Part shown: positions 41,809 through 47,104 of the stretch, one piece after another
How the letters are laid out: every line of letters starts with the position of its first letter
Numbering within the stretch: position 1 is the first letter of the stretch
Assembly: GCF_024713945.1 (NCBI RefSeq)
Contig: NC_134682.1
Coordinates: 4,379,001 to 4,443,000, forward strand
DNA from: Dermatophagoides farinae
Lineage: Eukaryota; Arthropoda; Arachnida; Sarcoptiformes; Pyroglyphidae
Direction of reading: 5' to 3'
Length of the DNA: 64,000 nt
Notes under the pieces: generated by a model
Seen by the model: only the letters and a program-made list of their open reading frames with translations
Told to the model about the DNA's origin: nothing
The model's database searches: none
Translations under genes and position numbers: made by a program

Positions 41809-42195
41809 CAGGATTTAAGATGATAAAATGAAAAAAAAAATTATTCAGACACAAAAATCATCAAAACGTTCATTTGTGTCAGCTGATTTAAATGTTCGTT
41901 GAGCATGCGTAATAATGATCAAGACGTTTTCATTTTTATTTGCTCTTTGTTTTTTTTTATTGATTTGCTTATTTTGTTGGTTTACATATCCTTAACACCA
42001 TCATCACAATAATACTAACACCCACTACTACGACAAAAAAAATGTCGTTATTTTTTGGCTAAAAGTACACGCGTTTCCATCATAATTCGTTAATATTTTC
42101 AATGTCAATTATTGTTGTTATTGTCAACGAAAACTAGTGCAAAACGCTCACAGAATCAACAATCCAGAAAGAATTCTAAATCCACAATAATAATA
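41809..42195. promoter_or_regulatory. Divergent promoter region of MED9 and the PLPP6-like gene
   Basis: About 390 bp between start codons. No clear TATA. A frame upstream of the phosphatase Met (from 42112) is open but has no ATG, so part may be coding from an unseen upstream exon. Confidence 0.5.
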
Positions 42196-42780
42196 ATGTT
42201 GAAAAATGTGCAAGAAAATTTGGCCATTTTTGATGAGAAATTATCCTATCAATGTTATCGTCTTGGTCAACGTACATTGAATATTAAAAAACGTTATCTA
42301 CAATCATTAGAATATTCATGTCATGGTATACCATGGTTGTCGTTGATAACATTATTCACATTTACCAGTTCGGATAATGATTTTTGGCTTGATTTACTGA
42401 TTGGTCTATTGATCGACATTGTTTATATTGCATTGGCTAAAGCTAGTTGCCGTCGACGACGGCCACAATATGCACCACAAGCTGATAATACATGGATTAC
42501 GGTGGATAAATTATCATTTCCATCTGGCCATGCATCACGATCTATTTATGTGGCATTAATTCTATCGAATCGATTCTCCTATCTGTCCATCATATTATGG
42601 CCATGGGCATTAGCAGTAACCATTTCACGTGTATTATATGGTCGTCATTTTATTGGCGATATATTAGCCGGCACTATTATCGGTTATTTTAACTATGTTA
42701 CCAGAAATTTTCCCATACAACAATTTATCAAATGGTTTCTAGTGACCATGGTCTATGAAACCATCAATGATAATTATTAA
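42196..42780 (+). CDS. Polyisoprenoid/lipid phosphate phosphatase, PLPP6 (PAP2) type
   Basis: 194 residues if the Met at 42196 (MLKNVQENLAIFDEKL) is the start. The three PAP2 motifs are present: KASCRRRRP (KxxxxxxRP), PSGHASR with the catalytic His, and SRVLYGRHFIGD with the nucleophile His. Four to five membrane helices. PLPP6-type enzymes in the ER hydrolyse presqualene and farnesyl/geranylgeranyl diphosphates. The frame is open 28 codons further upstream without an ATG, so an upstream exon is possible. Human PLPP6 is longer at the N-terminus (about 295 residues), which fits either reading. Confidence 0.87.
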   Translation: MLKNVQENLAIFDEKLSYQCYRLGQRTLNIKKRYLQSLEYSCHGIPWLSLITLFTFTSSDNDFWLDLLIGLLIDIVYIALAKASCRRRRPQYAPQADNTWITVDKLSFPSGHASRSIYVALILSNRFSYLSIILWPWALAVTISRVLYGRHFIGDILAGTIIGYFNYVTRNFPIQQFIKWFLVTMVYETINDNY

Positions 42781-43528: not shown

Positions 43529-44776
43529 ATGTTATTTTTAATCAAATTTTTTTGCTTTTTGGCAATAAAATTTCCATATTTAATCATCATCGTTTCCACA
43601 GCAAGTTAGTTTGAATAAGGATTCGAATTTTTTTTTTAAATTTGTTTTGATATCGGTTTTATTCTAATAAAATTCATTCATTTATATTTAGAATCATCAA
43701 CATCATCGTCATCATCATCATCATCATCATCAATAGCATATGGTGATGTAGCAACGGCCAATAATCAAGTGATCAAATTGATTATTAAATCATATGTACA
43801 TGAAATATTGGAAAATCCATTGATTCATCCGGATGAACTAAAAGATCGTTTAGCAAGAATAAAGTTGGTTAATGAATTTTGATTTGAATGAAAAAAAATG
43901 GTAAAATTTTTTTTTCTTTTGTCCATCCATCCAACCAAATAATAGTGATCATATCGAAAATCATCCAGCATTACATCAACAATATCTATGGGTTGGTTCA
44001 TCACCACCGCCACCAAATTATAATCCTGATTATCATATTTTGGAATACGAATCCATTATACCAAGACAATCATCATCATTTTATAATGAAACCATAGATG
44101 ATGATGGCCATTCAGATGATCAACATCATAATCATAATCATGATCATGATCATGATCATGATCATAATAATTATCTATTTCGATCTTCATCAACACAATC
44201 ATCATCACCGAAAATGATATTGAAAGTAAAAAGAAAGAAAAATTCCGATAAACGTGAACAATTACCATCGGAAGAAATTTGTGAAACAAAAGAAAAATGG
44301 GAACAGGTATGTGTTATAATATATATGTCATTTATGACAAATCTACTTATCTATATCTTATCTATTAATTTCAGATTATCGATACACATGATCTATTCGA
44401 TAATAAAGTCAAAGTGATACAAGAAAAAGATATGCAACAATTTGTATTCACATATCGTTGTGCAAAAAATCATGGCAAATGTTTAGGCATATCACCATTA
44501 TATGAATCTGAATGTACCGAACGTTTTGGTTGGATGTATATGTATTATATACCGATCATTACAGCTGATAACAATGATGGCGATGGCAGTAATAATGGTA
44601 TTGAAGGGCAAGCACAATGGGGCTTCGTGAATGCACCACATCATTGTGCTTGTAAACTTAAACCAAAATTATTTAATCATCATCATCATCAAAATAATAA
44701 TCATCAATTAGCAACAAACTTAATGATGAGCAGCAGCAGCAGTAAAGAAGAACCAATTGTACCGAATGATCTTTAA
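43529..44776 (+). CDS. Secreted neurotrophin/Spatzle-type cystine-knot ligand (pro-form)
   Basis: Four exons: 43529-43604, 43692-43863, 43946-44306 and 44375-44776, total 336 residues. Exon 1 is a signal peptide (MLFLIKFFCFLAIKF... IIIVSTA). The prodomain is Ser- and His/Asp-rich with two NxT/NxS-type sites. A basic stretch KVKRKKNSDKR ends it, suitable for furin-type cleavage. The mature part reads EEICETKEKWEQ, KVKVIQEKDMQQFVFTYRC, KCLGISPLYESEC, QWGFVNAPHHCACKLKP. The spacing C...W, YFxT(K/R)C, CxGI, SxC, WxF, CxC follows vertebrate NGF/BDNF closely (for example QYFFETKC, GCRGI, SYC, WRFI, CVC), more than typical fly Spatzle. An acidic Asn-rich insert (DNNDGDGSNNGIEG) sits in the loop before WGF. 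It is presumably a ligand for a Toll or Trk-type receptor. Confidence 0.75.
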
Positions 44777-45328: not shown

Positions 45329-47104
45329 TTATTCATTAATATCGATGATGATGATGATGACGATGATAATAATCGAGATGTTGATGTTACCATTAATGAA
45401 TATGATGGTGGTGATGATGTCGATGTTATTAATGGTGCTTTTCTCATCATCATCATCATCATGATCATTGTCACTGGAATTTATAATCGAATGTTGTTGA
45501 CAATTACGAATTTGTTCATTAATAAGTTTACGTTCCAATAATTCTGGTTCTTCAATAACTAAAAATGTTTTAAAATTAAAATATGGTATACGAAGAACCA
45601 ATGCAATCCATAACATCATCAAACAAAGACCAAAGTACATGTAGACAACTATACTGATTAGATACCATGTACGATTTTCGGTCAGACCATTTTGTCCGGG
45701 TACATAATCGCCAAGACCAACCGTAGTGATTGTAATGAAACAATAATAAAATGAATCTAAAAATGTCCATTGTGGTTCCATTTGTTTAAACAGAAAAGCC
45801 GGTAGGATTATCAATGCGGAAAATAGTACCATTGTAACCAGGAATAGATGTAGGAAACGAATTTTTAATAATGTTACTTCTTCAGTAAAATAACCGAATA
45901 ATTTGATGAGCCATACTTCAATCTGTTTGATTGGACCATCACGAATCATTGAAATGATGATGGAAAGAAACAGTAATGTACATGGAATCGATATGGCACC
46001 GAAAACTATTGTTAAAATTTTTCCTTCATTCGTAATCGGTGTAACATGACCATAGCCAATTGTAGTGACAACACTTGCAACATATGTCATACTGGAACCA
46101 AATTCCCAATTTGACATTTGTATCGGTACAATCAATGTTGATGCTTTAACTCTTTGGCCTTCTTTTTGTTGTTGTTCTTCTAATTGTTGTTGTTGTTCGG
46201 TTGGATATGATTTCAATGATGGTTGTTGCTGTTTTCTTTCAGTTACAATTATTTCTTCAATGACATCATCATTGCTGTCATCGGTTCGTTTATCAATGAC
46301 AATCACTTTTGAAACATTTTTATTTCCAGCTAACATTTTATCCGTTTCATCACCATCGGAATCGGCAACTGTCATCGTTGTCATCATCATTGAATCAACT
46401 AGATCATTAAGCAATGCCAAATTTACACCTTTATCATATGTAATGATGACACTTTTGATAAATTGTTTCAATTCTTTGGCTATTTCGCAAATGAAAGAAA
46501 AAAAATCAATCAATCGTTAGTAATAAGAATGCAAAAAATTATTTATTACGGCAATAAAAAAAAAGAACTTACAATCGACACATTGATTCTGTTCAAGAAA
46601 CAATTGTTGTTTATTCATAATTTGATCACGAAGACGTTGTTCTGCTTTCGATTCGAATGCCATGAATAATGATGCACCCAATAGAATGATTGTTATATAA
46701 ATGACAAAGAAGAAGATCAATGTAATTAGATGTGGATATTTTTCTTTTAATTTATATTCACAATTTATAATCGATACAGAACGATTCTGATACAATGTTG
46801 TTGGATGGCCTACAATATCAATTTTTTCCAATTGTTGTTGATGTTGTTGATATTGTGATTGTTGTTGATTATCAACAAATGTATTTGGTCTACCATCAAC
46901 ATCGTCAACATCGTCATCAATATCAACATCTTTTGGAAAGAAACTGAATGGATAGAATGTATATGGATCTTGATGATATGATGCCTGATGAAATATTTGA
47001 TTTTGATGATGATGATGACGATGGTCATCCGATTGATTCGAGGATGACTGATTCACTGGTTGTTGTTGTTGTTGTTGTTGTGGTGGTGGATGATTGTAGT
47101 ACAT
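45329..47104 (-). CDS. Two-pore-domain potassium channel, TWIK (KCNK1) type
   Basis: Exons 47104-46573 and 46479-45329 on the minus strand give 560 residues. The N-terminus is Gln/His/Asp-rich. M1 is HLITLIFFFVIYITIILLGASLFMAFE. A long extracellular cap region with a Glu/Gln-rich insert (about 100 residues) follows. Pore 1 has TTIGYGHVTPITNEGK, with the GYGH typical of TWIK channels; pore 2 has TTVGLGDYVPG, again TWIK-like; M4 follows. The channel carries background K+ current at the plasma membrane. The last 30 residues (IIIIVIIIIIDINE) come from an ATC repeat and look unnatural; the +1 frame over the same repeat gives a Ser-rich tail ending at 45157, so the C-terminus is uncertain. Confidence 0.88.

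Follow-up and report, generated by a model that had tools for sequence, protein, structure and literature searches.

A divergent neurotrophin candidate and genes for Trk and a p75NTR-like receptor in the genome of the mite Dermatophagoides farinae

The closest described counterparts of the gene presented here are the arthropod neurotrophins, which have been reported for Daphnia pulex (Dappu-NT) and, as expressed sequence tags, for the ticks Ixodes and Rhipicephalus (Wilson 2009, PMC2772990). The same paper describes flies as lacking Trk and using Spätzle ligands instead. Lauri 2016 (PMC4812194) recovers a neurotrophin group of ecdysozoans to which Daphnia belongs, with both ticks in the figure legend, and the neurotrophin system is called a bilaterian novelty in Heger 2020 (PMC7535936). 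A Varroa paper (PMC12027997) gives orthologues of Spätzle 1–6, and in the passages covered 'neurotrophin 1' is just a synonym of Spätzle 2. Among the matches listed from open-licence literature, the titles and abstract openings name no mite neurotrophin, Trk or p75NTR, which is no proof of novelty. The original prediction for this locus stated that neurotrophins occur in a few non-insect arthropods, and the Daphnia and tick reports bear this out; ticks also belong to the Acari, so a mite case is less new than was implied. The mite candidate is probably a new and divergent member of a kind already known from ticks and Daphnia.

The window, the whole stretch of DNA analyzed, comprises 64,000 nucleotides, and the features of the candidate gene are collected in Table 1 together with those of the two receptor genes. 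The prediction of four exons and three introns agrees with the coordinates, the GT–AG sites and the reading frame, in span as well as in exon number. The product has 336 amino acids (337 codons including the stop). Its signal peptide, recognized by eye as a hydrophobic stretch, ends in VSTA and is followed by a long pro-region of low complexity in which Ser, His and Asp abound. Both the basic cleavage stretch and the acidic Asn-rich insert ahead of WGF that had been predicted are present. A proprotein convertase would presumably cleave the basic stretch. The six knot cysteines are residues 195, 232, 239, 250, 294 and 296, the last two forming CxC, an arrangement common to neurotrophins and Spätzles. 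In the insert region, TADNNDGDGSNNGIEGQAQ carries a net charge of −4.

Table 1. Coordinates of the candidate neurotrophin gene (positions in the window) and of the two receptor genes (positions in the genome)
Feature	Position	Strand	Content	Basis
Exon 1	43529-43604	+	start codon, signal peptide at about aa 1-25	frame, GT donor
Exon 2	43692-43863	+	pro-region: Ser-rich start, then ANNQVIKLIIKSYVHEILENP	AG acceptor, GT donor, frame kept
Exon 3	43946-44306	+	His/Asp-rich pro-region, cleavage stretch, Cys I, W at Cys I +6	AG acceptor, GT donor, frame kept
Exon 4	44375-44776	+	Cys II-VI, His/Asn-rich C-terminal tail, stop codon	AG acceptor, open frame
Introns	43605-43691, 43864-43945, 44307-44374	+	87, 82, 68 bases	3/3 GT-AG, phases 1, 2, 0
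Basic processing stretch KRKKNSDKR, aa 178-186	44229-44255	+	KRKK aa 178-181, KR aa 185-186
Cystine-knot domain, Cys195 to Cys296	44280-44653	+	contains intron 44307-44374
Acidic Asn-rich insert TADNNDGDGSNNGIEG, aa 266-281, 16 residues	44561-44608	+	loop before Trp285, ahead of QAQWGF
Trp285	44618-44620	+	nine residues ahead of Cys V	diagnostic position 130 of Wilson 2009
Trk gene	G000:C9:2489607-2494283	+	10 exons, 1268 aa from first in-frame Met	9/9 GT-AG introns
p75NTR-like gene	G000:C2:6677853-6683521	-	5 exons, 677 aa	4/4 GT-AG introns

The exons might be unexpressed or wrongly joined, so that there is no working gene. The low-complexity pro-region fits this explanation. The splice sites are canonical, the frame is kept over three introns of differing phase, and all six knot cysteines are intact. 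In addition, 336 codons stay open in a genome rich in A and T. A first-order model of the window puts the chance of 336 open codons at about 3e-10, and thus a frame of this length is not expected at random; for the 134 open codons of exon 4 the value is about 1.6e-4. We regard a non-working gene as extremely unlikely.

Two neighboring open reading frames were noted in the window. An open reading frame of the PAP2-superfamily phosphatase type (42094–42780, plus strand, 67.4 bits) lies immediately upstream of the candidate gene, and one of the two-pore potassium channel type (45329–46516, minus strand; Ion_trans_2, 99 bits in two stretches) lies on the strand opposite to it.

The genome searched comprises 62.4 Mb in 22 contigs. 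Its group 2 allergen gene matches Der f 2 at 115 of 116 compared residues and has a lower score with Der p 2, which points to Dermatophagoides farinae or a very near relative. A six-frame search with the mature candidate found no second copy at E ≤ 10 besides its own locus. A search of the genome with the PF00243 profile gave zero matches and missed the candidate gene itself, probably because an intron splits its domain; therefore, the blank result is no proof against a second neurotrophin in the genome. Viral and prokaryote contigs yielded no relatives, which is what one would expect of a gene from an animal.

We compared the mature domain with profiles of both families. With Pfam, the intact domain scores 21.3 bits on Spaetzle and 16.8 bits on NGF, both under the 27-bit cut-offs, and the full-length product is reported for Spaetzle alone (16.8 bits, E 0.011). 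When the acidic insert is removed, each model gives 23.5 bits, again with cut-offs of 27. We dropped Pfam as sole judge of family, given that both models stay under the cut-off and the Spaetzle lead vanishes without the insert. The cut-off is a soft criterion for divergent members, and the candidate misses that of Spaetzle too. On the Spaetzle model, the six mite Spätzles score 55.6–97.2, Drosophila Spätzle 107.5 and human NGF 23.0 bits; on the NGF model, human NGF reaches 185.9 bits, far over the candidate. Judged by these scores, the candidate behaves toward the Spaetzle model like human NGF and unlike a family member. A clearly better Spaetzle score, which had been named beforehand as the result that would speak against a neurotrophin, was not found.

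These scores bear on two further explanations. First, the gene could encode a fast-evolving Spätzle paralogue that has lost the signature residues and signals via a mite Toll; the 21.3 bits against 16.8 with the insert in place are in its favor. Second, it could encode another cystine-knot ligand (Trunk/PTTH-like, coagulogen-like or noggin-like) with a convergent likeness to neurotrophins. The cystine knot is common to the whole superfamily, and the candidate shows low similarity to any one family, with 23–29% identity to the human neurotrophins. However, Spaetzle and NGF are the only Pfam families that match the mature candidate up to E 10, and the diagnostic residues discussed below are neurotrophin-type at all three sites, which makes another cystine-knot ligand very unlikely.

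In hhalign, the intact domain scores 25.8 (E 6.8e-4, probability 26.9%) against the profile built from four human neurotrophins, compared with 10.6 (E 0.33) against the one built from seven Spätzles. Among 100 Cys-preserving shuffles, the maximum on the neurotrophin profile is 21.1, under the value of the candidate. On the Spätzle profile, the shuffles have a mean of 12.1 and a maximum of 24.6, so the candidate lies below their mean, a result that argues against a Spätzle paralogue; the seven Spätzles, each set against a profile built from the remaining six, score 65.7–132.8. On the neurotrophin profile, SpzB scores 41.5, above the candidate, SpzD has 24.2 and the remaining five Spätzles have 10.4–18.4; human neurotrophins reach 246–285 when the tested protein is excluded from the profile. 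Consequently, the hhalign neurotrophin score alone is no membership test. These comparisons clearly set the candidate apart from ordinary Spätzles, and its resemblance to vertebrate neurotrophins is weak. Local HMMs give the intact domain 11.7 for Spätzle and 10.6 for neurotrophin, a lean of 1.1 bits that agrees with a Spätzle paralogue; with the insert removed they give 12.0 for neurotrophin (0 of 500 Cys-preserving shuffles as high) and 9.9 for Spätzle (5 of 500). The proposed HMM comparison thus divides: hhalign favors neurotrophin, but the intact domain leans to Spaetzle by 4.5 bits in Pfam and by the smaller amount above in the local HMMs. A PDB search with the mature domain returned nothing significant (best E 0.46, with a beta-NGF chain at E 1.6), and a single-sequence AlphaFold monomer model has a mean pLDDT of 41.6, too low for use.

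Three sites separate the families in Wilson 2009 (PMC2772990). Pro13 marks every Spätzle and is absent from neurotrophins; Trp130, absent from Spätzles, is present in all but one of the neurotrophins; and position 133 is Ile/Val in neurotrophins and Phe/Tyr in Spätzles. We read these sites relative to the cysteines in 12 knots: the candidate, four human neurotrophins, six mite Spätzles and one Drosophila Spätzle. The candidate is neurotrophin-type at all three, with no Pro near Cys I +9, Trp at Cys V −9 and Val at Cys V −6. The neurotrophin rule is likewise kept by all four human proteins, whereas Pro, the lack of Trp and Phe/Tyr are found in 7 of 7 Spätzles. The candidate has neither the Pro13 nor the aromatic 133 of a Spätzle, and the ExC and CxQ patterns, invariant in the seven Spätzles, are missing from it as well, all of which weighs against a Spätzle paralogue.

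Further positions are shared with the human neurotrophins. Trp at Cys I +6 occurs in the candidate and in all four of them, and the columns common to both include Asp30, Gln and CxG. Asp18 (mammalian Asp30) is strict in canonical neurotrophins according to Wilson 2009 (PMC2772990); the candidate has it in the alignment, an assignment that hinges on gap placement. Regarding the predicted motif order, the W six residues past Cys I, GKCxGI, SxC, WxF and CxC are all present, but the block (Y/F)xFxT(Y/K)C does not hold, the candidate having FVFTYRC and NGF YFFETKC. The vertebrate neurotrophin motif quoted in Wilson 2009 (PMC2772990), [GSRE]C[KRL]G[LIVT][DE]x(3)[YW]xSxC, fails in the candidate, which has K for [GSRE], S for [DE] and one residue fewer. 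The relaxed form C[KRL]G[LIVT]x(3,4)[YW]xSxC occurs once in the six frames of the window, in the candidate. The Daphnia neurotrophin keeps most residues of the vertebrate motif (Wilson 2009, PMC2772990), so the strict motif is not taken here as defining arthropod neurotrophins.

The spacing in the first half of the knot points the other way. The Cys I–II gap is 36 residues in the candidate and in six of seven Spätzles, and 42–44 in the four human neurotrophins. The Cys II–III gap is 6 in the candidate and in five of seven Spätzles, two of these five resting on by-eye exon joins (the gap is affected by such joins in SpzC, SpzE and SpzF), and 9–16 in the human proteins. Both gaps are therefore Spätzle-type and agree with a Spätzle paralogue, and the neurotrophin-like spacing claimed for this part of the protein is not borne out. 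Pro at Cys V −3 is also shared by the candidate and 7 of 7 Spätzles, though Wilson 2009 (PMC2772990) places it in some protostome neurotrophins too. The intron positions, read by eye, stand against a Spätzle origin: the candidate has an intron directly after Cys I, and none of the six mite Spätzles has a matching one; their knots contain no intron in two genes, one after Cys II in three and one between Cys IV and Cys V in the remaining gene.

A maximum-likelihood tree was calculated from 12 rows (the candidate, four human neurotrophins and seven Spätzles, with no invertebrate neurotrophins). The candidate is joined to the human neurotrophins, with all seven Spätzles opposite, at a support of 91/91 that is not starred, and its branch is very long. 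Pairing the candidate with SpzD (p 0.26) or SpzB (p 0.079) is not rejected by the AU test, which leaves room for a sister relationship of the kind that a Spätzle paralogue would have.

The Spätzle and Toll side is present in the genome as well. There are six Spätzle genes (PF16077), which account for ten of the 14 Spaetzle rows; the other four (L011–L014) are below the cut-off and were dropped. TIR domains occur at four places, a point in favor of a Spätzle paralogue. At one of these places, C3:3240513, a death domain precedes the TIR domain in a single 392-aa frame (G000:C3:3240201-3240881, L049), and this place was therefore read as a MyD88-like adaptor and not as a Toll. Weighing the residues, profiles and introns against the gaps, Pro, AU test and TIR places, we judge a Spätzle paralogue to be unlikely.

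Two observations on the mite Spätzles were made in passing. The Spätzle gene at L015:1480-2754 has a long C-terminal extension ending in NFSYHPILDYIVN, and this extension resembles the Spz2 motif NY(D/N)YHPIIDFF given in Wilson 2009 (PMC2772990), which suggests a Spz2/DNT1-type gene in the mite. Opposite the weak sub-cut-off Spaetzle matches at L011, L012 and L013, there are near-identical plus-strand frames (AIRLVDRIANDEG...), which may represent a repeated element or a gene family.

Both receptor types were sought in the same genome. The search for Trk gave one such gene. Pfam analysis of the Trk product (1177 aa from an internal Met) finds LRR_8, I-set in two stretches and the tyrosine kinase PK_Tyr, and a transmembrane segment is visible by eye. 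Against PDB, the kinase scores highest with TrkC (331 bits), TrkB (330) and TrkA (318), followed by MuSK (292), a chain labelled EGFR (252) and ROR1 (244). The motif NPNY stands ahead of the kinase, the activation loop includes DVYATDYYR, and PITYLKL lies close to the C-terminus. Leucine-rich repeats, two Ig domains, a membrane span, a Trk-class kinase, NPxY and a C-terminal Tyr are thus all found together, and by its predicted protein this is a canonical Trk encoded in the mite genome. The LRRCT_2 model PF16920 has no match at the Trk gene and one weak row elsewhere in the genome. The second Ig domain alone scores 42.6 bits with TrkC, 36.6 with TrkB and 30.0 with TrkA, and titin and neurofascin, proteins with many Ig domains, score higher.

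Kinase matches in the genome number 155 in one search and 44 in the search with TrkA, and three loci were classified: Trk, NRK/MuSK-type and ROR-type. The strongest TrkA match in the genome, at C10:39608-40384, is not Trk and was assigned to the NRK/MuSK type by its Ig, Frizzled-type and Kringle regions (by eye). The activation loop, again judged by eye, led us to assign the match at C10:1560758 to ROR. The NRK/MuSK-type receptor was recorded at L080:181-3151 on the minus strand, with Ig, Frizzled-type and Kringle regions plus a kinase (by eye), 51% identical to the TrkA kinase.

For p75NTR, the search gave a gene whose name is likely, not certain. TNFR_c6 matches its product in three stretches, corresponding to three CRDs (70.3 bits), and a transmembrane segment was found by eye. 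These are three of the eight TNFR profile rows in the genome; the other five are weak and lie elsewhere. The death domain scores 16.5 bits with Pfam Death, under the cut-off of 22.6. In PDB, p75NTR chains are the best 4 of 18 rows up to E 1, the best being 1ngr with E 0.0087. Alignment to a provisional human p75NTR sequence scores 84, and 0 of 1000 shuffles score as high. Taken by themselves, the first two CRD exons have better scores with DR6, OPG and TNFR2 than with p75NTR. Just past the 3′ end of this gene, frames of a trypsin-like serine protease (by eye) lie on the opposite strand (L084:651-1569, plus).

The gene structure, the knot sequence, the diagnostic residues and both receptor genes thus come from one genome, which probably holds a complete ligand–receptor set. 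The neurotrophin affiliation put forward in the original prediction finds support in the hhalign preference, the three separating sites, and the Trk and p75NTR-like genes. With these lines of evidence combined, we consider it likely, as far as sequence comparison can tell, that the candidate is a mite neurotrophin acting through Trk and/or p75NTR.

From the behavior of the ligand and receptor families, we infer that the gene would be expressed and its product processed, dimeric, receptor-binding and of neural use. A secreted pre-pro-protein would be cut at the KRKK/KR stretch to give a dimeric cystine-knot ligand, which would most likely bind mite Trk via the second Ig domain. Trk would then signal as a tyrosine kinase, using NPNY (Shc-type) and the tyrosine sites at the C-terminus. 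The ligand would most likely also bind the three-CRD p75NTR-like receptor with its death domain. The outcome would be control of neuron growth, survival or plasticity.

The least expected feature is an acidic ligand opposite a basic p75-like ectodomain. In vertebrate neurotrophins, the loop before Trp130 helps to bind p75NTR. The net charge from Cys I to Cys VI is −6 in the candidate, the lowest of the 12 knots (others −2 to +11), and +1 to +7 in the human neurotrophins; with the residues after the knot included, the values are −3 and +4 to +10, respectively. Regarding the receptors, the ectodomain charge is −20 in CRD1–4 of human p75NTR and +5 in CRD1–3 of the mite protein, and the second Ig domain of mite Trk also has +5. 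Charge polarity may therefore be reversed in the mite, with an acidic ligand facing basic p75NTR-like and Trk ectodomains, the opposite of the human situation; we propose this only tentatively and hold it to be doubtful, since the counts cover one species, few charges and, among the human receptors, p75NTR. If true, the ligand and receptors would have co-evolved via a polarity reversal with the triad kept, and the mite set would be orthogonal to the vertebrate one. The apparent reversal offers a sharp test of ligand–receptor co-evolution.

The presence of a likely neurotrophin, Trk and a probable p75NTR beside six Spätzle genes and TIR genes suggests that a single small arthropod genome can house both systems side by side. 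An acariform mite would join the ticks and Daphnia as a neurotrophin holder, and with the genes named, the pairing of ligand and receptors can be tested directly in an animal whose nervous system is very small.

Finally, we compare the candidate with the known systems. As described in Wilson 2009, arthropod neurotrophins have a signal peptide, a pro-domain, a six-Cys knot, Trp130, Ile/Val133 and no Pro13, as does the mite candidate, and they occur beside Spätzle genes, as in the mite. By the same description, the Daphnia knot is split by introns, as the mite knot is by one, and Daphnia has Trk together with a p75NTR of just three CRDs, the number also found in the mite p75-like protein. The differences are four coding exons in the mite against six predicted in Daphnia and, relative to the Daphnia and tick proteins as described there, the 16-residue acidic insert and the departure from the vertebrate motif. 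With the Spätzle family (PF16077), the candidate shares the cystine knot, the gaps of 36 and 6 and Pro at Cys V −3; unlike that family, it lacks Pro13, the aromatic 133, ExC and CxQ, has Trp130, and scores at chance level on the Spätzle profile in hhalign. With vertebrate NGF, BDNF, NT-3 and NT-4, it shares Trp at Cys I +6 and Cys V −9, CxGI...YxSxC, WxF(I/V), and the aligned Asp30 and Gln. Unlike them, it is only 23–29% identical, has shorter I–II and II–III gaps, a charge of −6 in place of +1 to +7, and Asn at the position of NGF Arg103.
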